Origin: Streptomyces sp. NRRL WC-3605
Lineage (GTDB): Bacteria; Actinomycetota; Actinomycetes; Streptomycetales; Streptomycetaceae
NCBI RefSeq assembly: GCF_001509795.1
Contig: NZ_LLZN01000092.1
Location: 1-23,353, forward strand
DNA: 23,353 nucleotides
Reading direction: 5' to 3'
Each line of letters begins with the position of its first letter. Within the stretch, counting starts at the first letter, position 1. The notes beneath the pieces were generated by a model. It did not search any database. It was not told the DNA's origin and saw only the letters and a program-made list of their open reading frames with translations. The translations under genes were made by a program, and so were the position numbers. Positions 2,016 through 19,883 of this stretch are shown one piece after another.

Positions 2016-2036
2016 GTCACCACCTCAACCGGTGAC
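2016..2036 (+). promoter_or_regulatory. 21-bp palindromic operator, copy A (upstream of ohr)
   Basis: GTCACC, spacer ACCTCAACC, GGTGAC. It is one of five intergenic copies of GTCACC-N9-GGTGAC in the window. It lies 71 bases before the Ohr start codon and right after a putative -10 element. The protein that binds it is not known. Confidence 0.75.
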
Positions 2037-2107
2037 GGCATGGAAATGCTGGTCGGGAGGTGTCGTCAAACCTTTCTCGGCCCGGACTCAGATGCGGAGC
2101 ACCAGTC

Positions 2108-2533
2108 ATGGCAGTCACCTACACCGCCGTTGTCGACGTCGACGGAGAGGGCCGCAACGGCGGTCACGTCAGTTCCTCCGACGGTCTGCTGGACACCAGC
2201 CTGGCGATACCGAAGGAGCTGGGCGGCGCGGGTGGCGCGACCAACCCCGAGCAGCTCCTGGCCGCCGGTTGGGCGGCCTGCTTCCTGGGCGCAGTGCGCC
2301 GCGCCGCGATCGAGCGCAAGATCCGGCTGGCGAGCACCGCCATCACGGCGGAGATCACCCTCACCCACGGTGACGACGGGGAGTTCTCCCTGTCCGCCGT
2401 TCTCAACCCCGTCCTCGGCGGGGTCGACCAGGCCACCGCCCAGCAGCTCGCCGACGCCGCGCATCAGATCTGCCCCTACTCCAAGGCCACGCGCGGCAAC
2501 GTGCCGGTCACCATCAAGGCTGCCGCGGCCTGA
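2108..2533 (+). CDS. ohr: Organic hydroperoxide resistance protein, Ohr subfamily of OsmC
   Basis: 141 residues, the usual Ohr length. Ohr proteins reduce organic and fatty-acid hydroperoxides with a catalytic cysteine pair in the cytoplasm, generally recycled by lipoylated proteins. Both cysteines are seen: Cys58 in AAGWAACF and Cys122 in CPYSKATRGNV, the second motif separating Ohr from OsmC proper. The start at 2108 has GGAG eight bases upstream; an in-frame upstream extension has no homology-like content. The gene stands alone between a promoter/palindrome and a strong terminator. The MarR regulator OhrR that often accompanies ohr is absent here, so control through palindrome copy A by a distant regulator is an inference. 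An FAD oxidoreductase and a glyoxalase-like gene downstream fit a peroxide/electrophile-stress setting. Confidence 0.93.
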   Translation: MAVTYTAVVDVDGEGRNGGHVSSSDGLLDTSLAIPKELGGAGGATNPEQLLAAGWAACFLGAVRRAAIERKIRLASTAITAEITLTHGDDGEFSLSAVLNPVLGGVDQATAQQLADAAHQICPYSKATRGNVPVTIKAAAA

Positions 2534-2547
2534 GAGGCCACCTGAAC

Positions 2548-2583
2548 GCGGGTCCCGCGTCTCCCCCCGGATGCGGGACCCGC
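2548..2583 (+). terminator. Terminator after ohr
   Basis: An 11-bp perfect stem, GCGGGTCCCGC (2548-2558) with GCGGGACCCGC (2573-2583), around a 14-base loop, starting 15 bases after the stop codon. Confidence 0.85.
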
Positions 2584-2631
2584 ACCCCTCTCCGGTCGGC
2601 CCGTGCCGCCCGCGGAGAACAAGGACAGCGC

Positions 2632-2832
2632 ATGACACACCCTGCAACCGCCCGTGGTGACCGGGTCTCCAGCGGTACCGCCGCCCCGGCCGACGACGAG
2701 CGGCCGCTGGGAAGGACCCCGGTGCCCTCGGACGCCGAGCGGCCGGCTCACCCGACCGACGTGCTCGTCTGGCACTGGGCCGAGAGCGCGGCGCTCGGGG
2801 GATACGGCCCGCCCGCAGCGAACTTCCTCTGA
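2632..2832 (+). CDS. Small hypothetical protein, 66 aa
   Basis: AAGGA six bases before the ATG is a good ribosome binding site. The protein is rich in Pro, Ala and polar residues in its first 40 residues (likely disordered) and ends in a more hydrophobic, aromatic tail (residues ~43-66 with VLVWHWAES and GGYGPPAANF). No signal peptide, membrane segment or known domain is recognised. It follows the ohr terminator and precedes a ~180-base gap before the glyoxalase-like gene. Codon third positions are strongly G/C, but overlapping frames on both strands are open too, so it could be a chance frame. No function is proposed. Confidence 0.45.
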   Translation: MTHPATARGDRVSSGTAAPADDERPLGRTPVPSDAERPAHPTDVLVWHWAESAALGGYGPPAANFL

Positions 2833-2933
2833 AGCAGAGGCCGTTGCCACACGCGCAGGCCGCAACCCCTCACACGTATCCCAGGGCGGGCATGTGCCGT
2901 GATCCTGGGTGACTCATCGTCAGTCCGCCTGCT

Positions 2934-2950
2934 GTTCCTGCTCAAGGAAC
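2934..2950. repeat. Short inverted repeat upstream of the VOC gene
   Basis: GTTCCT (2934-2939) and AGGAAC (2945-2950) form a 6-5-6 inverted repeat 62 bases before the downstream start codon. It is a possible operator but unlike the 21-bp palindromes elsewhere; support is only positional. Confidence 0.35.
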
Positions 2951-3011
2951 TGACGGCCGTCGCCGGACCCACCTTGTCAGCATCATCCGAATCGAAAGTG
3001 AGAACCCCGCT

Positions 3012-3458
3012 GTGGACATGAAGCTCGAAGTCGTCGTTCTGCCGGTGTCCGACGTCGACCGCGCCAAGGCCTTCTACGCCGAACGCCTGGGCTGGCGTCT
3101 CGACGCCGACTTCCCGATCGACGACGGATACCGGATCGTGCAGGTCACCCCGCCCGGCTCCGAGTGCTCGGTCATCTTCGGGCGCGGCCTGACGGCGCAG
3201 GAGCCGGGCACACTCCACGGCCTCCAGCTGACCGTCACCGACGTCGTCGAGGCACAGAAGGAACTGGAGTCCCGCGGCGTGGAGGTGTCCGGACCGTTCC
3301 GCGACGAGACGGGCGTCTTCCACCACGCCGGTGACACCCACCGCGTCCCCGGGCTCCACCCGGAGCGGGCCAGCTACGGGACGTTCGCGGCCTTCGCCGA
3401 TCCCGACGGCAACGAGTGGTTCCTCCAGGAGGTCACCCAGCGCGCTCCCGGCCGCTGA
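3012..3458 (+). CDS. VOC superfamily (glyoxalase/bleomycin-resistance-like) protein
   Basis: 148 residues. The paired beta-alpha-beta-beta-beta pattern of the vicinal-oxygen-chelate fold is evident. It starts with MKLEVVVLPVSDVDRAKAFY and LGWRLDADF and ends with FADPDGNEWFLQEV, the usual closing motif with its metal-ligand-position Glu. Members include glyoxalase I, ring-cleaving dioxygenases and drug-binding proteins; nothing here fixes the substrate. The start used is GTG at 3012, with ATG at 3018 as an alternative; the AAAGTGAGAA stretch upstream can serve as ribosome binding site. The C-terminal third contains a small insertion (FHHAGDTHRVPGLHPERASY) common in actinobacterial members. It stands between its own hairpin terminator and the small hypothetical gene. 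The neighbourhood suggests a role in detoxifying reactive electrophiles. Confidence 0.88.
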   Translation: MDMKLEVVVLPVSDVDRAKAFYAERLGWRLDADFPIDDGYRIVQVTPPGSECSVIFGRGLTAQEPGTLHGLQLTVTDVVEAQKELESRGVEVSGPFRDETGVFHHAGDTHRVPGLHPERASYGTFAAFADPDGNEWFLQEVTQRAPGR

Positions 3459-3467
3459 GACCCGGCC

Positions 3468-3497
3468 CCGGCGCCGCTGACCACGACGCGGCGCCGG
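3468..3497 (+). terminator. Terminator after the VOC gene
   Basis: A 10-bp perfect stem, CCGGCGCCGC (3468-3477) with GCGGCGCCGG (3488-3497), around a 10-base loop, starting nine bases past the stop codon. It separates the VOC gene from the FAD oxidoreductase gene. Confidence 0.75.
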
Positions 3498-3561
3498 AAC
3501 CGCCCCGATGCGCGGGCGCGTTTCGCCCGCCGCACCCCACCCCACCTTCAGGAGGCCAGGC

Positions 3562-5010
3562 ATGGCGACCGAGGACATCCAGACGTACGACGTCATCGTG
3601 ATCGGGGCCGGTCCGGTCGGCGAGAACGTCGCCGACCGGACCGCCGCGGCGGGCCTGAGCACCGTCGTCGTCGAGAGCGAACTGGTGGGCGGTGAATGCT
3701 CGTACTGGGCCTGCGAACCCAGCAAGGCTCTGCTGCGTCCCGTCCTGCTGCGTGCCGACGCCGTGCACGTACCGGGCATCGACCCGGCCGTCGGCAACCC
3801 GCTGGACACCAAGGCGGTCCTCGCCCACCGCGACCGAATGTCCGCCGACTGGAAGGACGACAGCCAGGTCGAGTGGCTGGAGTCCGCGGGCATCACTCTG
3901 CTGCGCGGTCACGGACGCCTCGCCGGAGAGCGCGAGGTGTCCGTGGAGACACCGTACGGCGCGACCGTACGGCTGCGCGCCCGGCACGCGGTCGCCGTGT
4001 GCACCGGCAGCCGGGCGGCGCTGCCGGAGTTGCCCGGCCTCGAGGACGTGAGGCCCTGGACGAGCCGCGAGGCCACCACCGCCGGCGCGGCGCCCCGCCG
4101 CCTCGCCGTCGTCGGCGCGGGAGTGGTCGGCGTCGAGATGGCCACCGCCTGGCAGGCACTGGGCAGCCATGTGACACTGCTTGCCCGTGAGGGAGGGCTG
4201 CTGCCCCGTATGGAGCCCTTCGCGGGAGAACTGGTCGCCGAACGACTGCGGGAGGCGGGAGCGGACGTGCGGTTCGGCGTCTCCGTCACTGCCGTGCGAC
4301 GCCTGCGCGACGGACAGGCCGACGAGGTACGGATCACCCTGTCCGACGGGGACGAGGTCGTCGCCGACGAGATCCTCTTCGCCACCGGGCGCGCCCCGCG
4401 CTCCGCGGACATCGGACTCGAGACCGTGGGGCTCGGCCCGGGGGAGTGGCTCACCACCGACGACAGCCTGACCGTCACCGCCGTGCCGGGGGACTGGCTG
4501 TACGCCGTGGGCGACGTCAACAGGCGGGCGCTCTTCACCCACCAGGGCAAGTACCAGGCCCGCATCGCCGGTGCCGTGATCGTGGCCCGGTACCGGGGGG
4601 AGCGTCCCGCGACCGGACGCTGGACACCGCACAGCGCCACGGCAGACGGCGAGGCCGTCCCGGGCGTCGTCTTCACCGATCCCGAGATCGCCACGGTGGG
4701 CCTCACCGCGGCCGAGGCCGAAAGGGCCGGACGCGATGTCGAGATCGTCGACTACGAACTCGGCAACCTCGCGGGTGCCGTGCAGTACCGCCCCGACTAT
4801 CGAGGGAGGGCCCGCGTCCTCATCGACCGGGAACGGGAGGTCGTCGTCGGCGCCACCTTCGCGGGACCGGGCGTGGGCGAACTGCTCTACTCGGCCACCA
4901 TGGCGATCGCCGGGGAGGTTCCGGTGGAGCGCCTCTGGCACGCGGTACCGGCCTTCCCCACCATCAGCGAGGTGTGGCTGCGCCTGCTGGAGACCAGGAG
5001 GGACGCATGA
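3562..5010 (+). CDS. FAD-dependent pyridine nucleotide-disulfide oxidoreductase (class I fold)
   Basis: 482 residues, normal for class I flavoprotein disulfide reductases. GGAGG (3551-3555) sits six bases before the ATG. The FAD-binding GAGPVG is at residues 15-20. The redox-active pair is Cys46/Cys51 in GGECSYWACEPSK, with the normal four-residue spacing. A second Rossmann motif, VVGAGVVGVEMA, binds NAD(P)H. YAVGDVN closes the FAD site, and a dimerisation domain starts near FTDPEIATVGLT. Near the C terminus, where lipoamide and mercuric reductases have the catalytic His of HPT..E, this protein reads AFPTISE, so that His appears to be Phe. Classic lipoamide dehydrogenase activity is therefore doubtful; a quinone or other small-molecule reductase is possible. 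It overlaps the next small reading frame by four bases (ATGA). Family call is sure, substrate unknown. Confidence 0.92.
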   Translation: MATEDIQTYDVIVIGAGPVGENVADRTAAAGLSTVVVESELVGGECSYWACEPSKALLRPVLLRADAVHVPGIDPAVGNPLDTKAVLAHRDRMSADWKDDSQVEWLESAGITLLRGHGRLAGEREVSVETPYGATVRLRARHAVAVCTGSRAALPELPGLEDVRPWTSREATTAGAAPRRLAVVGAGVVGVEMATAWQALGSHVTLLAREGGLLPRMEPFAGELVAERLREAGADVRFGVSVTAVRRLRDGQADEVRITLSDGDEVVADEILFATGRAPRSADIGLETVGLGPGEWLTTDDSLTVTAVPGDWLYAVGDVNRRALFTHQGKYQARIAGAVIVARYRGERPATGRWTPHSATADGEAVPGVVFTDPEIATVGLTAAEAERAGRDVEIVDYELGNLAGAVQYRPDYRGRARVLIDREREVVVGATFAGPGVGELLYSATMAIAGEVPVERLWHAVPAFPTISEVWLRLLETRRDA

Positions 5011-5161: not shown

Positions 5162-5171
5162 CGGCCGACCC

Positions 5172-5215
5172 GGCGCCCGCGCACGGACAATGCAGGCGCC
5201 GAGTGCGGGGGCGCC
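5172..5215 (+). terminator. Terminator after the oxidoreductase pair
   Basis: A 13-bp stem with one mismatch, 5172-5184 (GGCGCCCGCGCAC) with 5203-5215 (GTGCGGGGGCGCC), starting 11 bases past the stop at 5161. Confidence 0.7.
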
Positions 5216-5355: not shown

Positions 5356-5841
5356 TCAGGCGGCCGTCTCCGACGGGCTGAGGGTGTACATCACGGAACG
5401 CTGCCGCTTGTGGCGCCGGATCCGTCCCTTGGCCACCAGGGACTCCAACGTGTTCCGCACCACCTGCGGTGTCGGTTGGCGGTCCGGGTGCTTCGCCAGG
5501 AGCTCGTCGCGCAGTTCCTTCGCCAGGCGTGGCTGGTCGTGCTCGCGGAGCAGCTCCAACAGCAGGTCACCAAGCAGGGGCCGACGCTCGGCGGCCGCAC
5601 TGGTGCGCTTCGTCCTCGCCGCGACAGGCTCGTCCTGCGACTGCTCGGGCAGCCGGGACGGGTCCGCGAATCCCTCGTACCGCTGGGCGAGCTTCAGGAT
5701 GTCGGTCAGGAGGGCCTCCTCCTGCCGCAACACCGTCAGCTGTTCCGTCAGTTCCCGCTGGCGACGGCGGTTGTCCTCCAGGTCCGACGCGGCTTGGTCC
5801 ACCAAGCGCGACCGGAGGGTGCCGGTTGATTGGCTGGTCAC
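5356..5841 (-). CDS. Coiled-coil / winged-helix DNA-binding-like protein
   Basis: 161 residues. The GTG start at 5841 has GGGAG at a normal distance upstream. The N-terminal ~60 residues are a heptad-like amphipathic helix (EDNRRRQRELTEQLTVLRQE), followed by a charged linker with a basic patch (AARTKRTSAAAERR). The C-terminal half looks like a winged helix: LLGDLLLELLREHDQPR, then TPQVVRNTLESLVAKGRIRR as recognition helix and wing, and a final strand VMYTLSP. This layout (dimerising coiled coil plus winged helix that seems to judge expression of short units) is common in unnamed Streptomyces regulatory proteins. No ligand domain is seen. It is convergent with the oxidoreductase operon and is transcribed in the same direction as the ABC-F genes, but about 380 bases separate it from them. 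DNA binding is inferred, target unknown. Confidence 0.75.
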   Translation of the reverse strand: MTSQSTGTLRSRLVDQAASDLEDNRRRQRELTEQLTVLRQEEALLTDILKLAQRYEGFADPSRLPEQSQDEPVAARTKRTSAAAERRPLLGDLLLELLREHDQPRLAKELRDELLAKHPDRQPTPQVVRNTLESLVAKGRIRRHKRQRSVMYTLSPSETAA

Positions 5842-6155
5842 AACCGTTTCACTCCCTCATATGGATGTTGCTGCGCATGGTACCCACGGTGCCGACAGCG
5901 TGCGGACAAGTGTCGACCACGGAGGGCGCTCCGGGCATGTTCACCTTTCACGATAAGCGCAGCGGACCTGAAGTATGAGGTGAGCGCAGGTATTCACCGC
6001 CGTCTGCCGCTGTACGGCCGAACCCTGGCGGTCCCACGTACTGGTGGCTGGACGTGTGACACGTGTGCGGGATGGCGCCGGGCGCTGGAGCCGGACATGT
6101 CCCGGGCCGTCGTGCCCCTGCCCGGACGCCGTCCTGTCGACGTCCCCGAAGAGAG
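5842..6155. other. Intergenic region upstream of the winged-helix gene
   Basis: No credible gene. It must contain the minus-strand promoter of the 5356-5841 gene, although no hexamer pair stands out. A perfect 6-1-6 palindrome, ACGTGT-G-ACACGT, lies at 6052-6064; it is about 210 bases from the start codon, so a link to that gene is uncertain. Confidence 0.5.
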
Positions 6156-6215
6156 GGCCCGCCGAGGCCGCGCGCCGCACACGCGACGGGGCGACGCGCG
6201 GTGTTCGGGCGGGCC
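6156..6215 (-). terminator. Two-stage hairpin terminator after the ABC-F operon
   Basis: The outer stem GGCCCGCC (6156-6163) pairs with GGCGGGCC (6208-6215). The inner stem CCGCGCG (6168-6174) pairs with CGCGCGG (6195-6201). It begins seven bases beyond the stop codon of the minus-strand ABC-F gene. Confidence 0.6.
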
Positions 6216-6221
6216 GGGGGG

Positions 6222-7883
6222 TCACGACCGGGCCGGCGCCGGCTCCCGCTCCCGGTCGTGGTCCGGGGCCAGCCGGATCTCGCGGCCCGACCACCGGCGT
6301 CGCAGCCAGCGGTCGTGGCTGGCGACCACGATCGCCCCTGGACCCGTGGCGAGCGCGTCCTCGAGTTCGTCGCAGAGCCGGGGGGAGAGGTGGTTGGTCG
6401 GCTCGTCCAGAAGCAGCAGCTGTGGCGGCCGGGCGACCAGCAGTGCCAGCGCCAGTCGCCGGCGCTGCCCCACCGACAGACGCCCGACCGGCTTGTCCAT
6501 GTCCGCCTCGTGCAGCAGGCCCAGCGAGGCCAATGGCACCTTCTCCGCCCGGGCCGCGCCCAGCGCCTCCTCGTAGGTGCCGCGGACCGTGCGCTCGGGC
6601 CGTTCGAAGACGGTGTCCTGGGTGAGCAGCCCCACCGAAAGCCGCCGCCGCCTGTGCACCTCGCCCCCGGTGACCGCCAGCCGTCCCGCGAGCACGGCCA
6701 GTAGCGTCGACTTGCCCGCGCCGTTGCCGCCGGTGACCAGGAGCCGGTCGGTGGCGGCCACCTCCAGCCGGTCCACCGCGAGCCGTCCCGGCACCCGTAC
6801 GTCACGCAAGACGACCAGCGGCTGCGGGCCCTCCTCCGACCGGGTCGCCAGGTCACCGGCGGCGAACCGCAGGGGGCGCGGCGGCTCGGCAACCTGGACG
6901 CGCTCCAGTTCCTCCAGCCGTCGCGTGGCGTTGCGGACCCGGCGGGAGATCGAGTTCTGGACGCGGCCCGCCCAGTGGCCGTAGCCCATCTTCTCGTTGT
7001 CGGTACGGCCCCGGTCCGGGGCGACCCGGTGCGCGGTCACCCCCGCCGACGTACGCAACTCCCGCAGCTCCTGCTGTTCCTCGACGTACCGCTGTTCCCA
7101 GCGCCGCCGCTCGGCGTGCTTCTCGGACAGGTAGGCGCTGTAGTCGCCGCCGTAGCGGACGGGGCCGTCCACCGCCGGGTCGAGGTCGATCAGGTCCGTG
7201 CAGACGGCGTCGAGGAACGCCCGGTCGTGGCTGGCGAGCACGACGGTTCCGGGCAGCGAGCGGACCTGCTCCTCCAGGAAGGCGGCGGCGCCGTCGTCGA
7301 GGTGGTTGGTCGGCTCGTCCAGGAGCAGCGCGGAGGGCCGCCGGACGAGCAGCGCGGCCAGGGCGAGCCGTCCGCGCTGCCCGCCGGAAAGCGAGCCCAG
7401 CGTGCGGTCGTGGTCGACGGCACCGAGGCCCAGACCGTCCAGGACCAGGGCGGCACGCCGGTCGGCGTCCCAGGACTCCCGGTCCTGGGCCTGTTCGAGA
7501 CGCCTGCCGTAGGCATCGAGGACGCCCTGGTGGCCGGGGTCGTCCTCGGGCACCCGGGCGAGTTCCCTGGCTAGCCGGTCCAGCTCGGCCAGGTCCTCCC
7601 GCGCCTCGCGCAGGGCCTCGTCCAGGACGGCCGCGACGGTGGTGCCGCCCTCGAAGGACATCTCCTGGTGGAGGAAGCCGAGGTCGGCGGGGCGGGTGAC
7701 ACGACCCGCGTCGGGGTCGTCCGCGCCGGCGAGCAGGCGCAGCAGGGTGGACTTGCCGACGCCGTTCTCCCCGATCAGGCCGATGCGGTGACCGGGGGAG
7801 GCCGTCAGGGAGACGCCGTCGAGGACCCGGCGCCCGCCCAGGTCGCGAACGAGGTCATGGGCGAGAAGTGCGTGCTGGGGCAC
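6222..7883 (-). CDS. ABC-F ATPase, resembling antibiotic ribosomal-protection proteins
   Basis: 553 residues, two ATP-binding domains, no membrane segments. NBD1 has Walker A GENGVGKST, signature LSGGQ and Walker [16 protein letters not shown]2 has GGNGAGKST, a variant signature LSVGQ and [12 protein letters not shown]. The inter-domain linker, rich in Arg/Glu (ERRRWEQRYVEEQQELRELR), would reach the ribosomal P/E-site region. ABC-F proteins bind the ribosome; one branch displaces macrolides, lincosamides or streptogramins, others aid translation. Length, LSVGQ and the short PTNHLS end of NBD2 recall Streptomyces self-resistance members (TlrC/CarA/OleB/LmrC type), but the drug cannot be told from sequence. 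The GTG start at 7883 has AAGGA about 11 bases upstream; in-frame extension to 8180 overlaps the neighbouring gene and is not used. It lies 80 bases after a second ABC-F gene, probably the same operon. Confidence 0.9.
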   Translation of the reverse strand: MPQHALLAHDLVRDLGGRRVLDGVSLTASPGHRIGLIGENGVGKSTLLRLLAGADDPDAGRVTRPADLGFLHQEMSFEGGTTVAAVLDEALREAREDLAELDRLARELARVPEDDPGHQGVLDAYGRRLEQAQDRESWDADRRAALVLDGLGLGAVDHDRTLGSLSGGQRGRLALAALLVRRPSALLLDEPTNHLDDGAAAFLEEQVRSLPGTVVLASHDRAFLDAVCTDLIDLDPAVDGPVRYGGDYSAYLSEKHAERRRWEQRYVEEQQELRELRTSAGVTAHRVAPDRGRTDNEKMGYGHWAGRVQNSISRRVRNATRRLEELERVQVAEPPRPLRFAAGDLATRSEEGPQPLVVLRDVRVPGRLAVDRLEVAATDRLLVTGGNGAGKSTLLAVLAGRLAVTGGEVHRRRRLSVGLLTQDTVFERPERTVRGTYEEALGAARAEKVPLASLGLLHEADMDKPVGRLSVGQRRRLALALLVARPPQLLLLDEPTNHLSPRLCDELEDALATGPGAIVVASHDRWLRRRWSGREIRLAPDHDREREPAPARS

Positions 7884-7963
7884 GATCGGTCCGTCCTTCG
7901 TGATCGGTGGTCGGCCCGCCGGGCACACGGCCTCGGACGCGGGCCACGTCACACGTCGGAGGC

Positions 7964-9598
7964 TCACACCCCAGGAGCCCCCACTTCCTGCAGCGTGCCG
8001 TCGGCCAGCCGCAGCCATCGGCTGATCCCGATCTCGGCGAGGAACCGCTCGTCGTGGCTGACCACCATGAACGCGCCCTGGTAGGAGTTGAGCGCGCTCT
8101 CCAACTGCCCCGCGCTGACGAGGTCGAGGTTGTTGGTCGGCTCGTCGAGCAGCAGCAGGTGCGGGGCCGGCTCCGCGCACAGCACGCAGGCCAGGGTGGC
8201 GCGCAGCCGCTCGCCGCCGGAGAGCACACCGACCGGCAGATGGGCGCGCGTACCCCGGAAGAGGAACCGGGCGAGCAGGTTCATCCGCTCCGCCTCCGGC
8301 CGCTCGGGCGCGAAGTCGGCGAAGTTCTGCGCCACGGTCCGGTCCAGGTCCAGCAGATCCAGGCGCTGCGACAGGTAGGCGATCCGTCCGTCGTTGCGCT
8401 TGATCTCACCGCTGTCCGGCGCGAGGTCGCCTGTGACCACCCGCATCAGGGTGGTCTTCCCGGCGCCGTTGGGGCCGGTCAGCGCGATGCGCTCGGGCCC
8501 CCGCACGGTCAGGTCGACGCCGTTCGGGGCGAACACGTCCGCGTCGCCGAGCCGGACCTGCATGCCCTCACCGAGGAACAGGTTGCGTCCGGCGGGCACC
8601 TGGGTGTCGGGCAGTTCCAGGCTGAGCCTGACCTCCTCGCGCAGGGAGCGCCCGGCCTCGTCCAGACGGGCCTTGGCCTCGCTGACCCGCGCGGCGTGCA
8701 TCGTGCCGGACTTGCCGGCGGCCTCCTGCGCGCCCCGTTTCATGTTCCCCGCGAAGATCCGCGGCAGGCCGGCGTTCTTCAAGTTCCTCTGGGCGTTGCC
8801 GGCGCGGCGCTCGGCGCGTTCGCGGGCCTGCTGCATCTCCCGCTTCTCACGCTTGAGCTCCTGTTCGGCGCTGCGGATGTTCTTCTCTGCGACCTCCTGC
8901 TCGGCACGGACGGCGGCCTCGTACTCGGTGAAGTTTCCTCCGTACAGGCGCAGTTCGTCGCTGCCGAGTTCCGCGATGCGTTCCATGCGGTCCAGGAGCG
9001 CGCGGTCGTGGCTGACCAGGAGCAGGCAGCCGGTGAAGTCCGACAGGACGTCGTACAGCTTGTGCCGGGCGTCCGTGTCGAGGTTGTTGGTCGGCTCGTC
9101 GAGGAGGAGGACGTCGGGCCGCTTGAGCAGTTGGGCGGCGAGGCCGAGGGAGACGACCTGGCCGCCGCTGAGGGTGGCGAGGCTGCGGTCCAGCGCGATG
9201 TCGGTCAGGCCGAGCCGGTCGAGCTGGGCGCGGGTGCGCTCCTCGATGTCCCAGTCGTCGCCGATGGTGGTGAAGTGCTTGTCGTCGACGTCGCCGGACT
9301 CCACGGCGTCCAGCGCGCGGATCACCTCGGCGACGCCCAGCACCTCGGCGACCGTGAGGTCCAGCGTGAGCGGCAGGCTCTGGGGGAGGTGACCGAGGGT
9401 GCCGTTGACGGACACCGAGCCGGTGAGCGGCTTGAGTTCACCGGTGATCAGCTTGAGCAGGGTGGATTTGCCGGAGCCGTTGGGGGCGACCAGGCCGGTG
9501 CGGCCGGGCGTCACGGAGAACGACAGGTCGTGGAAGACCGGGGTGTCGTCGGGCCAGGCGAAGGAGAGGTTCGAACAGACGATGGCGGCGTCGGACAT
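7964..9598 (-). CDS. ABC-F ATPase (Uup/YheS-like soluble duplicated NBD protein)
   Basis: 544 residues with two ATP-binding domains and no membrane segments. NBD1 shows [14 protein letters not shown] and [14 protein letters not shown]2 shows [14 protein letters not shown] and [12 protein letters not shown]. The linker between them is long and highly charged (about residues 235-330, with [20 protein letters not shown]), predicted as the ribosome-probing helical hairpin of ABC-F proteins. The start chosen is ATG at 9598; the frame stays open upstream to 9736 but that part is proline/arginine-rich and unlike ABC-F N termini. It is the promoter-proximal gene of a two-gene operon with the ABC-F gene at 6222. 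The ~45-base upstream hairpin (9641-9655) could belong to a drug-responsive leader, as known for other ABC-F genes, but no clear leader peptide was identified. Translation factor versus resistance factor remains open. Confidence 0.9.
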
Positions 9599-9829
9599 GA
9601 CGGAAGACCTCTGAGGAACTGAGGGCGGAGCGCATGGTTCTCTGCCCTGGGCAGACATGGGAAAAGGGGTACGACGACAGGGACCACTCGGCAGCGCCCG
9701 CGGCGCCGACCAGTGGCCGTCACATCCGGATCTCACCCGGAGATGTCGTCTTCACCCACCACGTCTGTCTCTCCTCGCTGGACGATCTACGTGCCCACTC
9801 ACGATAGCAGGTGGGTCCGTCTCAGGGCG
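9599..9829. other. Divergent intergenic region between ABC-F and molybdenum-enzyme operons (left part)
   Basis: No gene is seen. On the minus strand it should hold the ABC-F promoter and leader. A compact hairpin, TCTGCC-CTG-GGCAGA, occupies 9641-9655 in the presumed leader. A second inverted repeat, CCCAC (9794-9798) with GTGGG (9811-9815), lies further up. No convincing leader peptide was found. Confidence 0.5.
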
Positions 9830-9858: not shown

Positions 9859-9859
9859 C

Positions 9860-9880
9860 GTCACCTGTTGAAACGGTGAC
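9860..9880 (+). promoter_or_regulatory. 21-bp palindromic operator, copy B (upstream of molybdopterin oxidoreductase)
   Basis: GTCACC, spacer TGTTGAAAC, GGTGAC. It lies 97 bases before the start codon at 9978 and over the expected transcription start of the promoter at 9830-9858. Confidence 0.75.
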
Positions 9881-9977: not shown

Positions 9978-10703
9978 ATGGCAGGAAAGCGGAAGCCGGA
10001 CCCCGAGAGCGGTCCGCCGGTCGGTCGCCGAGCGCTGCTGGGCATGCTCGGCGCGGGCGCCGCTGGCCTCGCCGCCGCGCCCTACCTCCAGCGAGGCTGG
10101 GAGAACTTCCTCGGCGCCGCGTCCCAGGTGGACGCGACCGGCCTCACCGGCCTGCTGCCCAACCCGGGCGGCTTCCGGTACTACAGCGTCGTCGGCTCGG
10201 TGCCGCACAAGGACGAGACGAACTACGCGCTCAAGGTCCGCGGCCTGGTCGACAAGCCGAAGACGTACACCCTGACCGACCTGCGTGCGATGGCCCAGAC
10301 CCGGGTCGTCGCCGACGTGCTGTGCACGGACGGCTGGCGGGTGGACGACACCCCGTTCGAAGGGGTGAGGCTGTCGGACATCCTGGACGACGTCGGGGTG
10401 CGCTCTCCCGGCGCGGCGATTCGCTTCACCTGCTTCGACGGCGCGTACAGCGAGAGCCTCACCCTGGAACAGGCCCGCCGCGCCGACGTCCTGGTGGCGC
10501 TGAAGATGCAGGACAAGCCCATCACCCACGAGCACGGCGGCCCCGTCCGCCTCTTCGTGGCACCCATGTACTTCTACAAGTCGGCCAAGTGGCTGTCCGG
10601 CATCTCGGTCACCGACAAGGTCGTCCCCGGTTTCTGGGAGGAACGCGGATATGCGATCGACGGCTGGCTCGACGGAGCCGACCGGCACGGCGAGGCGGCC
10701 TGA
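9978..10703 (+). CDS. Tat-exported molybdopterin-dependent oxidoreductase (sulfite oxidase fold)
   Basis: 241 residues. AAGGAG lies upstream of the ATG at 9978. The N terminus carries a twin-arginine signal: VGRRALLGML followed by an alanine/glycine-rich hydrophobic stretch to about residue 40. The rest matches the short oxidoreductase molybdopterin-binding domain: ALKVRGLVDKPKTYTLTDL, then Cys116 in VLCTDGWRVDDTPFEGVRL as the likely molybdenum ligand, and an FFVAPMYF-like segment (RLFVAPMYFYKSAKWLSG). YedY/MsrP-type enzymes use this fold on the outer face of the membrane to reduce oxidised methionine, receiving electrons from a haem membrane partner. The next gene, overlapping by 53 bases, encodes such a candidate. 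The substrate is unknown, and low identity to MsrP in length (shorter by ~90 residues) argues against equating them. Confidence 0.88.
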   Translation: MAGKRKPDPESGPPVGRRALLGMLGAGAAGLAAAPYLQRGWENFLGAASQVDATGLTGLLPNPGGFRYYSVVGSVPHKDETNYALKVRGLVDKPKTYTLTDLRAMAQTRVVADVLCTDGWRVDDTPFEGVRLSDILDDVGVRSPGAAIRFTCFDGAYSESLTLEQARRADVLVALKMQDKPITHEHGGPVRLFVAPMYFYKSAKWLSGISVTDKVVPGFWEERGYAIDGWLDGADRHGEAA

Positions 10704-11343
10704 CCCGGCCGACCGCGTCCGCCGCTTCAGCACCGCGGAACGCTGGGTCCACCGCACCACCGGCTGGTTGATGCTGGTGTGCCTGGTCACCGCCGCGTGC
10801 CTCTACCTCGGCCCGCTCGCCCAACTCGTCGGGCGTCGCCACGTGATGGTCTTCTTGCACGAGTGGTCGGGCATCCTGCTGCCGTTGCCGGCCCTCCTCG
10901 GGCTGTTCTCCGCCGACTTCCGCGCGGATCTGCGGCGCCTGAACCGGTTCGCGGTATACGACCGCCAGTGGCTGATGGCCGTCCGCCGGGGTCGCAGGTC
11001 ACCTGGGGCGCGTCCGGCCGGGAAGTTCAACGCGGGTCAGAAGATCTACGCGGGCTGGATCGCCGGGGCCGTGCTGGTGATGATGTTCACCGGCCTGCTC
11101 ATGTGGTTCATGGGGCTGCTGCCCTTCATCTCCCGCACCAGCGCCATCTTCGTCCACGACCTGCTGGCCTGGGCGATCACCGCGGTCGTCCTGGGCCACC
11201 TGCGCAAGGCATTCCAGGACCCGGAGGCACGGCTGGGCATGCGCACCGGGTACGTCAGCCGGTCCTGGGCCGAGCGAGAGCACTCCCGGTGGCTGAGCAA
11301 GGACCGCGACTCCGGCGTGGCCGACCGGACGCACGTGGTGTGA
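10651..11343 (+). CDS. Cytochrome b561-like integral membrane subunit
   Basis: 230 residues. The start at 10651 has GGAGG at good spacing inside the end of the upstream gene, so translation is coupled through a 53-base overlap. The first ~25 residues are polar and proline-rich. Four hydrophobic segments follow: about 37-57 (TTGWLMLVCLVTAACLYL), 68-88, 133-155 (WIAGAVLVMMFTGLLMWFMG) and 165-187. Histidines that could ligate two b haems lie in or near them: ERWVHRTTGW, VFLHEWSG, FVHDLLAW and VLGHLRKA. The protein resembles formate dehydrogenase gamma/cytochrome b561 subunits and probably passes quinol electrons to the exported molybdoenzyme. The operon ends in a strong hairpin at 11443-11481. 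Confidence 0.87.
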   Translation: MRSTAGSTEPTGTARRPDPADRVRRFSTAERWVHRTTGWLMLVCLVTAACLYLGPLAQLVGRRHVMVFLHEWSGILLPLPALLGLFSADFRADLRRLNRFAVYDRQWLMAVRRGRRSPGARPAGKFNAGQKIYAGWIAGAVLVMMFTGLLMWFMGLLPFISRTSAIFVHDLLAWAITAVVLGHLRKAFQDPEARLGMRTGYVSRSWAEREHSRWLSKDRDSGVADRTHVV

Positions 11344-11516: not shown

Positions 11517-12059
11517 TCAGGGGACGCCGGCGCCGCGCAGCAGGGTGTCGACGACGAGGTCCGCCGCGCGGGCGGGGCTCAGGTCGGGCAACTGACGTGA
11601 CACCAGGTGCATGAGCTGCGGCAGGAGGGCGCTCACCCACCCGGCCGGCAGGTCGGCACGGAGGAAGCCCTCAGTGACGGCGCGGTCGAGGAAGACGTCG
11701 ACCTCGTGGGCGGATGCGTCGCGGCGGGCGCGCACCTCCTCGTCGGCGAGCATGCGGGTGAGGTCGACGGGCCAGGTGCGGTTGACCGCGATGATGTTCT
11801 CGACGTAGCGGTGCAGGGCGACGGCGACGGGTGCCTCGCGCAGCCGGGCGTCCTCGATGGCTCGTTCGATCGCGGCCAGGCGGGACTCGTAGATCGCGGA
11901 GAGCAGGTCCTCGCGGGACGCGAAGCGCCGGTAGACGGTGCGCCGGTCCACGCCGGCCTCGGCGGCGATGCTCGCGATGCTCGCGCCGGGATCCGCGGCG
12001 AGCATGCGCGCTCCCGTGGTCAGGACGGCTTCCAAGTTGCGTGCTGCGTCGGCTCTCAC
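11517..12059 (-). CDS. TetR/AcrR family transcriptional regulator
   Basis: 180 residues. The N-terminal helix-turn-helix is clear: ASIASIAAEAGVDRRTVYRR with FASREDLL (residues ~27-55), followed by an all-helical ligand domain that is not conserved with any member I recognise. The GTG start at 12059 has a weak ribosome site (CAGGG). It is divergent from the DHA2 exporter gene with 218 bases between, the usual layout for a TetR repressor of a drug pump. The inducer is unknown. A degraded second copy of this gene lies at 15455-15715 next to the aldehyde dehydrogenase gene, and a 22-bp DNA element is shared by both promoters (12130-12151, 15791-15812). That suggests this regulator, or its lost paralogue, controls both. 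Confidence 0.9.
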   Translation of the reverse strand: MRADAARNLEAVLTTGARMLAADPGASIASIAAEAGVDRRTVYRRFASREDLLSAIYESRLAAIERAIEDARLREAPVAVALHRYVENIIAVNRTWPVDLTRMLADEEVRARRDASAHEVDVFLDRAVTEGFLRADLPAGWVSALLPQLMHLVSRQLPDLSPARAADLVVDTLLRGAGVP

Positions 12060-13908: not shown

Positions 13909-14187
13909 AGTCGGCGCGTGCGCCCGGCCGTGAGGAACGGCCGCGCGGCGGCGCGCTCTCCGACAGCCGCCTGCACGGAGCGTAGAACCGGACTCGTCAC
14001 CGCCGTGGCTGGTGATGCATGGACCAAGAGCTCCGCCACCCGTCAAGGTGGTGCCGGAACCTCGTCGCGTCTCATGAGTGCCCCCGGGCGGCGGAAGTGC
14101 CGTTGCCCGGGGCCCGGTCCCGCGGCGCGCTGGTCGGCTCACGGCCGAGCCCGTGCCCTCGGCGGTGGTGATGGGCGGGGTGCGGAT
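13909..14187. other. Convergent intergenic region, no feature recognised
   Basis: Between the exporter terminator and the 3' end of the epoxide-hydrolase-like gene. Open frames crossing it on both strands have no start signal or protein-like content, and no further hairpin stands out. Confidence 0.5.
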
Positions 14188-15261
14188 TCAGAGGCGGTCG
14201 GCGTCGACCACGGCCTGGGCGAAGGCGGTGGGCGCCTCCTGCGGCAGGTTGTGGCCGACGTTCGCGATCGTGCGATGCGCGTACGGGCCGGTGAAGTGGT
14301 CGCGGTAGCCCGATCCGTCCCCGGGCGGGGTGAAGGGGTCGAGGGCGGCGTCGAGGGTGACGGTGGGGACATGGATGGAGGGCTGGCCGGCGAGCAGCTT
14401 CTCGTAGCGCGCGTACCGGCCGTCCGTGTCCACGAGGCCGATGCGCCAGCGGTAGTTGAAGAGCACGATGGCCGCGTAGTCGGGGTTCTTGAACGCCTCG
14501 GCGGTGCGGTTGTACGTGTCGTCGCTGAAGTTCCAGTTGGGGGAGACCAGGGTCCACACGTACCGGCACAGCGCGAGGCGGCTGTCCTCGTCCTCCATGG
14601 CCGCCTTGCCCCGGGGAGTGGCGAAGTACCACTGGTACCACCACGTGTGCTCGACGGCCGGGGCGGCGGGCGCGGCCTGCGCCGCACGGTTGGTGATGAG
14701 GTAACCGCTGGTGGAGACAAGGGACTTGACCCGCTCCGGCCAGAGGGCGGCGATGATGTCGGCGGTGCGCGATCCCCAGTCGAAGCCGGCCAGCACGGCC
14801 TTGTCGATCCGCAGGGCGTCCATCAGGGCGATGACGTCCAGCGCGATGGCGGACTGCTCGGCCGTGCGAGGGGTGCGGTCCGACAGGAAGGCCGTGCTGC
14901 CGTGTCCGCGCAGATAGGGGACGACGACGCGGTACCCCAGGTCGGCGAGCAGCGGGGCGACGTCGGCATAGCTGTGAATGTCGTACGGCCAGCCGTGCAG
15001 CAGCACGACCACGGGGCCATGCGCCGGGCCGGCCTCCGCATAGCCGACGTTCAGGACTCCCGCCCTGACCTGCCTGATCTTTGCGAACGAAGTGTGGGTG
15101 CCCGGTGTGACGGCCGGGACGGTGGGGACCTGGGAGCCGCCGCCCGGCCGCCCACGCGAGGCGGACGAGGCGAACGCGTCGGTCCCCATGCCCGAGAGCG
15201 AGACAGCGGCCGCGCCGGTGCCAAGGCCTACGGCCTTGCTGAAAGTACGCCTGTTGATCAT
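14188..15261 (-). CDS. Tat-exported alpha/beta hydrolase, epoxide hydrolase-like
   Basis: 357 residues. The ATG at 15261 opens a twin-arginine signal, INRRTFSKAVGLGTGAAA, ending near residue 35, so the enzyme acts outside the cell. The hydrolase domain has the oxyanion motif HGWP (89-92), the nucleophile elbow AGFDWGSR with Asp161 in place of Ser, and the histidine motif NVGHNLPQEAP near the C terminus. Asp nucleophile plus HGxP marks epoxide hydrolases and haloalkane dehalogenases; NYRWR in the cap may supply a ring-opening tyrosine. Secreted epoxide hydrolases are less usual than cytoplasmic ones. The 5' region carries palindrome copy C 118 bases upstream. The frame remains open upstream to 15459, but only the inner start gives the export signal. 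Substrate unknown. Confidence 0.9.
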   Translation of the reverse strand: MINRRTFSKAVGLGTGAAAVSLSGMGTDAFASSASRGRPGGGSQVPTVPAVTPGTHTSFAKIRQVRAGVLNVGYAEAGPAHGPVVVLLHGWPYDIHSYADVAPLLADLGYRVVVPYLRGHGSTAFLSDRTPRTAEQSAIALDVIALMDALRIDKAVLAGFDWGSRTADIIAALWPERVKSLVSTSGYLITNRAAQAAPAAPAVEHTWWYQWYFATPRGKAAMEDEDSRLALCRYVWTLVSPNWNFSDDTYNRTAEAFKNPDYAAIVLFNYRWRIGLVDTDGRYARYEKLLAGQPSIHVPTVTLDAALDPFTPPGDGSGYRDHFTGPYAHRTIANVGHNLPQEAPTAFAQAVVDADRL

Positions 15262-15378: not shown

Positions 15379-15399
15379 GTCACCTGTCCAGCCGGTGAC
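15379..15399 (-). promoter_or_regulatory. 21-bp palindromic operator, copy C (upstream of epoxide-hydrolase-like gene)
   Basis: On the minus strand it reads GTCACC, spacer GGCTGGACA, GGTGAC. In this orientation it is nearly identical to copy D, including several bases past the right arm. TGGACA in the spacer could act as a -35, with transcription towards the gene at 15261. Confidence 0.75.
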
Positions 15400-15454: not shown

Positions 15455-15715
15455 CCCACCCCTCCGGCGGCTCCCCGGGCAACAGGCCCTCTTCGGTGCC
15501 CCGTCGCAGGGGCGCGTCCACCTCGGCGACGCAGATGTCCCGACGCCGGCGGATGGCCTCGTCCGAGAGCATGCGGGCAGCGAGCATGCGGGGAAGGCAG
15601 GGCGACGGCGACGGGTGCATCGCCGAGCCGGGTGTCCTGGATGGCCCGCTCGGTGGCCGGGATGCGGGACTCATAGATCGCGGAGAGTAGGTCCTCGCGG
15701 CCGGCAAAGCGGGCT
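15455..15715 (-). pseudogene. Degraded TetR gene, related to the TetR at 11517-12059
   Basis: Reading leftwards, one frame gives RARFAGREDLLSAIYESR, TERAIQDTRLGDAPVAVAL. A second frame gives RMLSDEAIRRRRD, EVDAPLRRGTEEG and PEGW. Both align with the intact regulator (FASREDLLSAIYESR ... APVAVAL ... RMLADEEVRARRD ... VTEGFLRADLPAGW). About 19 codons between VAVAL and RMLSD are missing with a frame change. The helix-turn-helix before FAGRED and the C-terminal ~25 residues are also gone. Nucleotide identity is high: 35 of 37 bases match between 15664-15700 and 11880-11916. It lies divergent to the aldehyde dehydrogenase gene, where a functional local regulator would sit. Confidence 0.85.
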
Positions 15716-17315: not shown

Positions 17316-17361
17316 CCTCCGCAGCGACCCCACCGTGGAGCACATGTACCGGCTGGAGTCA

Positions 17362-17384
17362 CACACACGGCGGCACCATGTGTG
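17362..17384 (+). terminator. Weak hairpin after the aldehyde dehydrogenase gene
   Basis: CACACA (17362-17367) and TGTGTG (17379-17384) form a 6-bp stem around 11 bases, 47 bases past the stop codon. It is an AT-richer and weaker candidate than the other terminators here. Confidence 0.3.
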
Positions 17385-17448
17385 CACACGCTGTGTGGTC
17401 TTGATTCGCCCGCCCACCGTTGCACGCTGATTCGGACAGGGACGAAGA

Positions 17449-17737: not shown

Positions 17738-18072
17738 CTCACCTGCGGCAGGCCGAAGTCGAACTGCGCCAGTCCGCCGCTCCGGAAGCCGTAGCCGGTG
17801 CAGTCGGCGCCGCTGTACGTGGTGATGGACGACGTCTCACTGACGATGACGAGCGAGTTGACCGGCTCCGCCAGCGTGTGGCACGTGCCGAAGTCGGTGA
17901 GGTCGACCACCGTCTCAGTACCCGAGTTGTGGTGGCCCGTGTAGAGATAGCCGCCCCACTTCAGGGGCGGCCAGTCCGACGCGCTCGCTGTCCCGGCGCC
18001 GAGGCCGATCAGGGCCGCGGCGGCGGTCGCGACGACAATGGCGGTGCGGAACTTCGCTTCGGGGGAGGACAT
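17710..18072 (-). CDS. Small secreted protein, possibly beta/gamma-crystallin-like
   Basis: 120 residues. The ATG at 18072 follows GAAGGGTGGG; a GTG nine bases further up is an alternative start. A Sec signal peptide is clear: basic KFR, hydrophobic TAIVVATAAAALIGLG, then ASAS-D as cleavage site near residue 32. The mature ~88 residues contain two cysteines (GTCHTL and GADCTGYG) that may form a disulfide and several short beta-strand-like segments with Gly/Tyr/Phe. This, with the ending QVSYRV, recalls single beta/gamma-crystallin or I36-inhibitor-like secreted proteins of Streptomyces, but no diagnostic motif was seen. It is divergent from the 63-aa gene; palindrome copy D lies 181 bases upstream of its start, so shared control is possible. 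Confidence 0.72.
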   Translation of the reverse strand: MSSPEAKFRTAIVVATAAAALIGLGAGTASASDWPPLKWGGYLYTGHHNSGTETVVDLTDFGTCHTLAEPVNSLVIVSETSSITTYSGADCTGYGFRSGGLAQFDFGLPQVSYRVAPVTG

Positions 18073-18252
18073 GCGACCCACCCTTCCTCGTGTGCATCGG
18101 CATCAGGGAATGTCGGCCGACCTGCTTCGATCGTGCGCAGCCGACCGACAAGATTTTTGCGACTTCAACCATGTGAGGAAAGAGCGAAACCGGCCACCAC
18201 ATACGTGTCGGTCTCACAAGGACCTGGTGATGGTGCATTCACTGCGGCAGGC

Positions 18253-18273
18253 GTCACCGGCTTGACAGGTGAC
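18253..18273 (+). promoter_or_regulatory. 21-bp palindromic operator, copy D (upstream of the 63-aa gene)
   Basis: GTCACC, spacer GGCTTGACA, GGTGAC. It carries a perfect TTGACA (18262-18267) usable as a -35 towards the gene at 18333, though no good -10 follows. It sits in the divergent interval between the secreted-protein gene and the 63-aa gene. Confidence 0.75.
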
Positions 18274-18332
18274 GAAGATCAGGGCACGCTGACATCAATC
18301 GCGGTCCACGACCGAGGAAGTGGAGCATGGTC

Positions 18333-18524
18333 ATGAACAAGGAACTCGCCACGGACGCCGAAGCGGCGATACGGCATGCCCGCTTCGGCAAGCTCCCCGA
18401 GCGGATCCGCTACGAGGACATGACGACCGAGGCGGAAGTCGCACCCGGCGGCCCGGGAGATGGCTACAACCCCGAGAACTCGTGGAAGTTCTACTCGTGC
18501 CTCGCCCTCGACCTGGGACTGTAG
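18333..18524 (+). CDS. Small hypothetical protein, 63 aa
   Basis: The start at 18333 is preferred over the ATG at 18327 because AAGTGGAG then lies seven bases upstream. The protein has a charged, probably helical N-terminal half (ATDAEAAIRHARFGKLPERI) and a central acidic segment EDMTTEAEVAPGGPGDGY. It ends in the hydrophobic tail NSWKFYSCLALDLGL, with a single Cys. There is no export signal or membrane segment. The layout (charged leader, Gly-Pro hinge, short aromatic tail) is loosely like a peptide precursor, but no modification or transport genes are adjacent, so this is only a thought. It is preceded by palindrome copy D at 60 bases, which supports its being a real expressed gene. Not recognised as any named family. 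Confidence 0.65.
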   Translation: MNKELATDAEAAIRHARFGKLPERIRYEDMTTEAEVAPGGPGDGYNPENSWKFYSCLALDLGL

Positions 18525-19323
18525 TGGTTGTGCGCCCCTATCCAGGTGGAGTCACGGAGCGGGGCCCCATTTACCACCGGATGCGGGCGAACGGCTACCG
18601 GGGTGTGAACGAAGACATGCTCGCTCTCATACGTGCTGCATAAGTGCCAACCTCGCATATGTGAGCACGTATCGCGCTCGCAGAGGACCCTACGCCGGCT
18701 GGGGTGATGCCGGCGTCGCCGCGATCTCGTGCTCCTGGGCGGTCATCGCCGCCCCGGTGTCTTCGCCCTCGCCGAACGCGACGACGCGGCCCGCCGCCCG
18801 CAGTTCCCTGCGGGCCGGCTCTACCCTCGGCCTGGGGCACCGGACACCGCCTGCTCTCGGTCGCGTACGGCTGCCGCCGTCACCGGCGGCGCCGGCAGGA
18901 GTCGGCGGTCGCACGTAACGGCCGCGGGGCGGTGCCGCACCGGGCTTCCCGGCGCGCGTGCTTTGTGCCCGCTGCCATCTGCGTCCCTCAGCCCGACGGT
19001 CAACCTAGGAGCGCTCCGCGTCCCTGGGGACTGGGTCACCCAGGTCACAAGCCGGTCAGGGTGTGTCGCAGACCGGAACGACAGGAGCGCCGAACGGGAT
19101 ACGTCGGCCCGGATCGGCGGTCCCGGGGCGTGTCGGCGAGGAGCGCGTAGCTCGCCCTCCGATGGTGCCGCCAGAGGGCGACCGCGCCGCACGGGCGCCG
19201 GTCACTGGCACTAGTCCGACCCGGCCCCGGTGCGTTGCGTGCGCAGTCGTTCGACGGATGCGGTGCGCGCGACCGTAAGACCGATGAGTTCCAGCGGCCG
19301 ATCCCGGTGCCCCCGCGTCGTGT
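18525..19323. other. Long intergenic region with possible gene fragments
   Basis: About 800 bases without a convincing complete gene. A short plus-strand frame from 18527 to 18643 (ending RMRANGYRGVNEDMLALIRAA) looks protein-like but lacks a ribosome site. On the minus strand, around 18700-18810, a frame with strong G/C third positions reads LRAAGRVVAFGEGEDTGAAM, possibly the end of a lost gene. From ~18900 to 19323 nothing is recognised. The region may be decayed coding DNA. Confidence 0.45.
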
Positions 19324-19782
19324 TCATGACCTGCGCCCCCGGGGACCGTAACGGCGTGAGCGCGATGTCGCGGGAGTCGGCGCGGGGCGGGCCTGCCTCG
19401 CCCGGTTGAGGCTCCACAGCAGGAGAAGGAGGAGGACCAGTCCGGACACGATCAGACCGGTGCCCGTGGCCCAGCCGCCGAACGGGAGCCGGGGCAGCAG
19501 CCCCCACGTCACACCCGCCGCGAGGAGCCCGACACCGGCCAGTACGGAGGCGGCGAGCCGGAGCGGTGAGGCGACACTCTCGTCCGCTGCGCGCAGAGCG
19601 CGCACACGCACCGGATCTACGTATCTCCGGACTCCGGGGAACTCCCGGGAGAGGACCAGCAGCCCGGCAAGGACCAGGAGCAGACCCGGACCGGGCAGGA
19701 CGAGCAGCGCCACTCCCGTCAGCAGCAGTGCGCCGCCTGCCACGAGAGCCGTAGCCCGGCGCAGCGCGCCACCCTTGAGCAT
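19324..19782 (-). CDS. PGPGW-motif (TMEM-like) integral membrane protein
   Basis: 152 residues. The ATG at 19782 has GGAGG six bases upstream and is preferred over the GTG at 19797, which has no clear site. The first ~40 residues form a helical hairpin around VLPGPGLLLVLAGLLVL followed by SREFPGVRRYV, the signature of the PGPGW family of small membrane proteins of unknown function. Two more membrane segments follow: LRLAASVLAGVGLLAAGVTW and GTGLIVSGLVLLLLLLW. The tail is basic and proline/arginine-rich, presumably cytoplasmic. The gene stands alone; palindrome copy E and a promoter with TTGACT/CAGAAT lie directly upstream. Some family members associate with envelope stress, but no role is shown by the sequence. 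Confidence 0.85.
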   Translation of the reverse strand: MLKGGALRRATALVAGGALLLTGVALLVLPGPGLLLVLAGLLVLSREFPGVRRYVDPVRVRALRAADESVASPLRLAASVLAGVGLLAAGVTWGLLPRLPFGGWATGTGLIVSGLVLLLLLLWSLNRARQARPAPTPATSRSRRYGPRGRRS

Positions 19783-19845
19783 CCAGTCCTCCGTCACGCC
19801 GTGCGTCCGCAGGTCGAACAGGGACTGCCGACCAGCATTCCGGAC

Positions 19846-19874
19846 ATTCTGCCCGAATGTGTGTCACCAGTCAA
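19846..19874 (-). promoter_or_regulatory. Putative promoter of the PGPGW gene
   Basis: On the minus strand TTGACT (19874-19869), a 17-bp spacer, then CAGAAT (19851-19846). The -35 lies inside palindrome copy E, so a protein bound there would block RNA polymerase. The expected leader is about 55 bases. Confidence 0.55.
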
Positions 19875-19883
19875 ACTGGTGAC
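19863..19883 (-). promoter_or_regulatory. 21-bp palindromic operator, copy E (upstream of the PGPGW gene)
   Basis: On the minus strand GTCACC, spacer AGTTTGACT, GGTGAC. It is the most symmetrical copy: the arms extend to nine bases each (GTCACCAGT and ACTGGTGAC) around a three-base centre. It lies 81 bases from the start codon at 19782. Confidence 0.8.

Follow-up and report, generated by a model that had tools for sequence, protein, structure and literature searches.

The DNA analysed here, a stretch of 23,353 nucleotides from Streptomyces sp. NRRL WC-3605 (contig NZ_LLZN01000092.1; hereafter the window), carries genes for an Ohr family peroxiredoxin, a molybdopterin oxidoreductase followed by a cytochrome b561-type gene, an alpha/beta hydrolase, a small conserved protein and a PGPGW membrane protein, together with two ABC-F genes (Table 1). 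Five copies of a 21-bp palindrome, GTCACC-N9-GGTGAC, lie ahead of five of these genes and had been interpreted in a first-pass annotation as the operator of an unassigned regulon. The present analysis concerns this palindrome, the genes it accompanies and the protein that may bind it, a candidate with an ABATE and a CGNR zinc-finger domain.

A palindrome clustered at promoters

A pattern scan of the whole window returned exact copies at the five annotated positions only. All are intergenic, as had been stated, at a measured distance of ~53-117 bp upstream of the likely start codons, and the estimate of far less than one chance occurrence agrees with dinucleotide shuffles, which gave a mean of 0.00 exact matches. 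With up to two mismatches allowed, the window has 14 matches against 3.01 expected. One of the near-matches (copy 1 of ohr in Table 1) precedes the 2016 copy by 42 bp, so that a tandem pair lies ahead of ohr; twin ohr sites 41-42 bp apart are also found in four relatives (G107, G020, G134 and G034). Two additional RTCACC matches, one inside ohr (2354-2374) and one between convergent gene ends (13996-14016), look like noise.

The genome-wide scan that the first-pass annotation had proposed yielded six exact copies in 7.58 Mb (136 contigs), five of them on the contig of the window and the sixth, on contig C52, within a predicted open reading frame; the three RTCACC matches outside the window (contigs C35, C38 and C126) each lie within a predicted open reading frame as well. 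A scan of the same genome with one mismatch (171 forward matches against 20 for the reversed control) is uninformative, probably because GTCACC/GGTGAC codon pairs are common. Exact matches range from 0 to 17 per genome across 61 genomes, of which 59 have at least one. Since matching all 12 fixed bases is no rarity here, the strong evidence lies in clustering, promoter position and conservation and not in the raw count. A chance or codon-usage artefact, which the presumed frequency of these codon pairs and genome counts of up to 17 might suggest, is hardly conceivable in view of the intergenic promoter position, the concentration of five of the six genome copies within 23 kb, the absence of exact matches from the shuffles, and the conservation across species at the same genes.

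Table 1. Predicted operators, their putative target genes and adjoining genes in the window
Feature	Position	Strand	Basis
Operator copy 1 of ohr, ATCACCGTCTTGACGGGTGAC (ATCACC...GGTGAC)	1974-1994	+	pattern scan
Operator copy 2 of ohr, just downstream of inferred -10	2016-2036	+	pattern scan
Ohr family peroxiredoxin (target)	2108-2533	+	TIGR03561, 148.4 bits vs cut-off 88.85
Two ABC-F genes	6222-9601	-	in relatives adjoin ABATE-CGNR gene
Operator of Mo-oxidoreductase/cytochrome b pair	9860-9880	+	pattern scan; orthologue sites 22/23
Tat-type molybdopterin oxidoreductase, sulfite oxidase/MsrP-like (target)	9978-10703	+	PF00174
Cytochrome b561-type membrane subunit	10651-11343	+	PF01292
Tat alpha/beta hydrolase, epoxide-hydrolase-like (target)	14188-15261	-	PF00561
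Operator of Tat alpha/beta hydrolase	15379-15399	-	pattern scan; orthologue sites 17/20
Operator of 65-aa protein	18253-18273	+	pattern scan; orthologue sites 17/19
Conserved 63-65-aa protein (target)	18327-18524	+	no Pfam or NCBIfam match
PGPGW putative transmembrane protein (target)	19324-19782	-	PF09656
Operator of PGPGW membrane protein	19863-19883	-	pattern scan

An ABATE-CGNR protein as candidate regulator

The remark of the first-pass annotation that no adjacent gene is clearly the regulator holds for the window but not for relatives, where a gene for a protein with an ABATE domain (PF07336) and a CGNR zinc finger (PF11706) lies in the same cluster with the site at its own start. The palindrome was found beside this gene in a first set of relatives picked by the motif, and a search of relatives for a regulator gene carrying the site, as had been advised, found it with the site at the start codon; in one of them (G013) the operator, GTCACCCGTCAGAATGGTGAC, runs directly into the GTG start. 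All four proteins tested, including the copy from our genome, have PF07336 at the N-terminus (E-values of 7.8e-27 to 5.1e-23, scoring above the cut-off) as well as PF11706, and in an alignment of 20 sequences the four finger cysteines never vary, nor do several arginines. The candidate matches PDB entry 3h0n over the finger.

A homologue at E<=1e-35 is present in 36 of 121 genomes sampled across the genus. Among 29 loci (L044-L072), 24 carry the operator without mismatch at the start codon, two of these with an offset of one base, and 3 have it with 1-2 mismatches. A further set of 80 loci, the best of 567, was chosen by protein alignment only, with a few genomes already present in the earlier sets, and spans Streptomyces, Kitasatospora, Actinacidiphila, Embleya and Planotetraspora. 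At 79 of these the operator touches the start codon of the regulator gene (75 exact, 4 with 1-2 mismatches), and at the remaining one a 1-mismatch operator ends 3 bp before it. The mean information is 1.70 bits per column within the operator against 0.26, 0.45 and 0.62 in three 20-bp stretches upstream, so that the conservation is not a by-product of general similarity.

The assignment is made by association and regulators often control other regulators, so the palindrome might be bound by a DNA-binding protein of some other kind, such as a TetR or MarR protein, of which the ABATE-CGNR gene is itself just a target; TetR-type genes do occur in several of the clusters. We regard this as unlikely, as among the tracked families the CGNR gene alone has the site in essentially every locus, in fixed register with its start codon. 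Moreover, the starts of divergent CGNR paralogues are preceded, in the same geometry, by a palindrome that is related to this one but distinct from it, a finding for which an unrelated regulator offers no explanation. The missing regulator of the regulon in the window is thus most likely an ABATE-CGNR repressor, and we consider it probable, on comparative sequence evidence, that RTCACC-N9-GGTGAY is the operator of this zinc-finger repressor, a proposal that comprises binding, repression and release by an oxidant signal.

Conservation of the regulon in relatives

The regulon as such, already proposed from the window, is borne out by relatives, in which the sites are kept upstream of orthologues. 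In the 80 protein-chosen loci, an exact site within 300 bp upstream was counted after removal of rows with <45% identity, a match starting after query residue 25, too little upstream DNA or identical repeated upstream regions. Such a site precedes 22/23 Mo oxidoreductase, 17/20 hydrolase, 17/19 65-aa protein, 10/12 Ohr and 6/7 MsrA genes, and 5 of 12 aldehyde dehydrogenase genes. Few sites were found at ABC-F1 (4/48), VOC (1/6), pyridine nucleotide oxidoreductase (1/7), TetR1 (1/8) and SRPBCC-like (1/4) genes, and none at three controls from within the same loci, ABC-F2 (0/43), cytochrome b (0/24) and PenR (0/21). In a few relatives the regulon also takes in VOC and pyridine nucleotide-disulphide oxidoreductase genes. 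Over all 125 long loci, part of which had been selected by the motif itself, the counts are 25/27 for the Mo oxidoreductase, 29/32 for the hydrolase, 22/28 for the 65-aa protein, 14/16 for Ohr and 9/12 for MsrA, whereas for 19 permuted half-sites the expectation, summed, does not exceed 0.05 per family. Of the “redox or envelope stress” first suggested for the targets, Ohr, MsrA and the sulfite-oxidase/MsrP-like Mo enzyme speak for redox stress, as do VOC and the disulphide oxidoreductase in those few relatives, while envelope stress is not specifically supported.

These counts also bear on the two TetR proteins encoded within the cluster of the window (11517-12059 and 22038-22610). Either is a very unlikely regulator. 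Close to the promoter of the AcuR/LmrA-like gene at 22038, and to the neighbours of that gene, one sees by eye a palindrome of another kind (around GACCGGTC); no GTCACC-N9-GGTGAC within two mismatches occurs near the gene, and only the single site mentioned was found among the TetR1 orthologues. Both TetR proteins were rejected on these grounds.

In the genus sample, the strict motif RTCACCNGTCARNNNGGTGAY occurs in 31 of the 36 genomes with a homologue at E<=1e-35, in 6 of them as the self-site only, and in 8 of the 85 without (Fisher p 2e-16, ignoring phylogeny). All eight motif-only genomes have more distant family members. One (G002) has a 40% identical copy with an exact self-site; in another (G119) the copy is more distant and its self-site is of GTTACC type, and in a third (G022) the site lies ahead of MsrA. 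In genomes below the homologue cut-off, Ohr was found at E<=1e-30 in 25 of 40, at most 55% identical, and the operator in 0 of these 25; the Ohr proteins outside the regulon are different Ohr copies, so that this is no clean loss-of-site test.

OhrR, a MarR-type protein, is a known repressor of ohr in Streptomyces (PMC6034001), and the motif at ohr might accordingly be an OhrR box. This is extremely improbable and was rejected by sequence, as the Streptomyces OhrR boxes given there are GCAACTNAATTGC or ACAATTCAGTTGT-like and do not resemble GTCACC-N9-GGTGAC. An OhrR-box-like sequence occurs in 0 of 16 upstream regions of regulon Ohr genes, and none was found upstream of ohr in the window, but the loose pattern used matched only 1 of 25 Ohr genes from genomes below the homologue cut-off, which makes this a weak test.

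Promoter geometry and proposed mode of action

At 113 operator sites of hydrolase, Mo oxidoreductase, 65-aa protein and Ohr genes, a TTGAC-type -35 points toward the gene in 69, in reverse in 15 and in neither direction in 29. Of the 70 sites that contain a -35-like core, 83% are followed at 16-18 bp by a -10-like hexamer (score >=3); after shuffling of the downstream DNA the figure is 13%. Both boxes are recognisable at three of the six copies in the window: that at 1974 has a -35 TTGACG inside the operator and CATGAT 18 bp downstream, and those at 18253 and 19863 have TTGACA with CACGCT and TTGACT with CAGAAT, respectively, each at 17 bp. The copy at 15379 has a weak pair (a -35-like TGGACA and a weak -10, AAAGGT), and the box pair is absent from the second ohr copy at 2016. 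At the regulator gene itself the sites read GTCACC-NGT-CARNAT-GGTGAY followed by GTG, with an asymmetric centre opposite to the target orientation. This operator, at -21 to -1, includes the -10-like CARNAT and runs up to the start codon, which fits a leaderless mRNA and self-repression.

Operators over -35, -10 and +1 have the geometry of a repressor. A site over the -35 is compatible with class II activation in some systems, and the ABATE-CGNR protein might on this ground be an activator. We hold this to be improbable: where boxes are recognisable the operator is centred within the -35 hexamer; at the regulator promoter it spans the -10 and stops at +1; and the second ohr copy falls close to the transcription start. 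In each of these positions a bound protein would block RNA polymerase.

In the repressor model that we favour, an ABATE-CGNR dimer would bind the two half-sites of the operator, which at many target promoters covers the -35 hexamer (TTGAC falls within the operator). The ohr gene, and in a few relatives VOC, has a second operator ~40 bp further downstream, around the inferred transcription start. The regulator would repress its own gene through an operator over the -10 box, the mRNA being apparently leaderless. Release from DNA would follow an oxidative or electrophile signal, plausibly sensed when the Zn(Cys)4 finger is oxidised or when a ligand occupies the ABATE domain, and would allow Ohr, the Mo enzyme, MsrA, the Tat hydrolase and the 65-aa protein to be produced.

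Several observations do not sit easily with this model. The -35 points forward in only 1 of 10 MsrA sites and 0 of 5 aldehyde dehydrogenase sites, 12 of 25 Mo oxidoreductase sites lack a clear TTGA-type core, and the Mo oxidoreductase promoter of the window (9860), with a -35-like TTGAAA, has no convincing -10. At two loci (L051 and L069) the best operator match is not at the regulator start. Five genomes have a homologue yet lack the strict motif, and five motif-only genomes (G014, G021, G081, G091 and G118), which have more distant family members only, are unexplained. The orthologues are related by descent, so the site counts are not independent events. Finally, the candidate regulator of our strain lies outside the window and its self-site, CTCACCGGTTAGAGTAGTGAC, is degenerate, with 2 mismatches.

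The syntenic ABATE-CGNR copy, which stands beside the ABC-F pair in relatives such as G020, G107, G100, G036, G072 and G104, is missing from the window, and tblastn with four homologues found no remnant of it at 5841-6222. The best homologue in the genome, on contig C45 (L037), is 49% identical to the G013 copy and 78% to the copy in G134. That genome has no closer copy at E<=1e-35; its self-site is exact, and its ohr, MsrA and hydrolase genes retain intact sites. From the similarity to the G134 copy, and from the intact sites of G134 in the absence of a closer copy, we infer that the C45 protein, the likely regulator in this genome, would act in trans.

A possible shared operator grammar in part of the wider family

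An ABATE-CGNR match at E<=1e-20 is present in at least 85 of 246 genomes of the actinobacterial class, with few candidates scored per genome, and at the start of the more distant copies a palindrome of another sequence is often present, such as GTAACC-N9-GGTTAC ahead of an ATG. Eighty more 5' regions of divergent members were chosen by protein only, among the matches listed without a locus (query start <=7 in 78, at 10 and 11 in two). In 22 of these, NNNACC-N9-GGTNNN touches an in-frame start codon; the mean over the 63 other possible cores is 0.03, and among spacings from 3 to 15 there are scores at 9 (22) and 15 (3) only. This suggests a common operator grammar in part of the family. The other 58, mostly more distant members, have no start-abutting palindrome of this form and count against a wider validity, although two of the misses (L293 and L325) do have a palindrome before ATG, further upstream than the 75-bp limit.

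Among 101 distinct fingers with a site, residue X of a D-X-S motif is Arg in 75 of the 79 with GGTG (G19) and in 0 of the 22 without; the exceptions have Cys (L181) or Thr with GGTG (L367-L369). On a tree of 59 rows the base changes five times and the residue three times, and no independent-pair test is significant. The covariation rests on few independent changes, so the recognition rule is offered as a hypothesis. It is conceivable, and we put this forward with reserve, that the ABATE-CGNR family represents a new class of zinc-finger repressors in bacteria that share the grammar NNNACC-N9-GGTNNN over their own leaderless promoters, the ACC/GGT core being read by invariant finger residues and the neighbouring base by X of D-X-S (Arg with GGTG, Thr, Ala or other with GGTT), and in which the Zn(Cys)4 finger may be an oxidant switch.

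A diverged ABATE-CGNR group (L129, L130, L131 and L134) stands beside a gene for a “VFDxLGTxVDxPGGLR” protein, which from its sequence looks like a haloacid dehalogenase of HAD type, with operators near both starts.

Other features of the window

The product of 9978-10703 matches the general domain PF00174 alone; its scores against the SorA (62.9 of 600 bits), SoxC (54.6 of 420) and MsrP (51.7 of 207) equivalog models lie far below the cut-offs. The cytochrome b561-type gene is presumably co-transcribed with it. The 63-65-aa protein has no match in Pfam or NCBIfam; it has 225 homologues, and among the matches listed (120 of the 225) nearly all are unnamed or hypothetical and one is labelled Arc/MetJ family by its source. 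It is a frequent member of the regulon (window; L031, L033, L105, L115 and L118), and the copies read end in SC-x-ALDL. The PGPGW protein has no homologue in the long loci of relatives, and among 23 genomes queried homologues were found in our genome and in G027 only, where a 74% identical copy has a 1-mismatch site and a 58% identical one has none.

An ABC-F pair commonly adjoins the regulator gene (L104, L116, L118, L101, L102 and L109), where ABC-F2 has no operators, hinting at co-transcription or a link to antibiotic resistance. At 15456-15711, upstream of an aldehyde dehydrogenase gene, two separate pieces resemble the TetR of 11517-12059 (50% and 79% identity), like a decayed duplicate.

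A second palindrome family, around (TAG)GNGACCGGTCGNCTA, occurs at 21786-21793, 21930-21939, 23182-23199 and 23203-23220, between the AcuR/LmrA-like TetR gene and a zinc alcohol dehydrogenase gene, and twice before the start at 23257, whose product looks by eye like a flavodoxin/WrbA-type protein. It probably marks a small regulon of that TetR protein itself.

Relation to known systems and significance

RsrA/SigR and other actinobacterial Zn-thiol redox switches use a zinc-cysteine centre as oxidant sensor. The zinc-cysteine centre of the ABATE-CGNR protein may by analogy do the same, with the difference that the zinc site here is the predicted DNA-binding finger of a repressor and that no sigma factor is involved. 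Like OhrR (PMC6034001), the system would be a self-regulated, redox-type repressor over an organic-hydroperoxide peroxidase, but it belongs to another protein family, has another operator, and has MsrA, the Mo oxidoreductase, the hydrolase and the small protein as extra targets.

The closest described protein is Jann_2411 (PDB 3h0n), for which a fold was reported and a dimer and a stress-linked role in transcription regulation were proposed (PMC2954205); the part of that report considered here names no operator, regulon or mode of action. The candidate regulator shares both domains with it, and its four invariant cysteines have the same order as the zinc ligands of Jann_2411, with a spacing of 5, 16 and 5 against 5, 16 and 4 (PMC2954205). 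The two-fold symmetry of the operator fits the dimer proposed there. What is proposed here beyond Jann_2411 is the 21-bp operator, the promoter geometry, the list of targets and a possible shared grammar; a search of the open-licence PMC literature, which leaves subscription papers aside, found among the papers listed none on target DNA of the ABATE-CGNR family.

ABATE-CGNR proteins are common in actinobacteria and a structure has been available since 2009, to which a specific predicted operator, a proposed promoter mechanism, putative targets and a recognition hypothesis can now be added. If the proposal is true, a family of “putative stress-induced regulators” would become a predictable class of repressors, and a redox-repair regulon of Streptomyces, separate from that of OhrR, would have been named.

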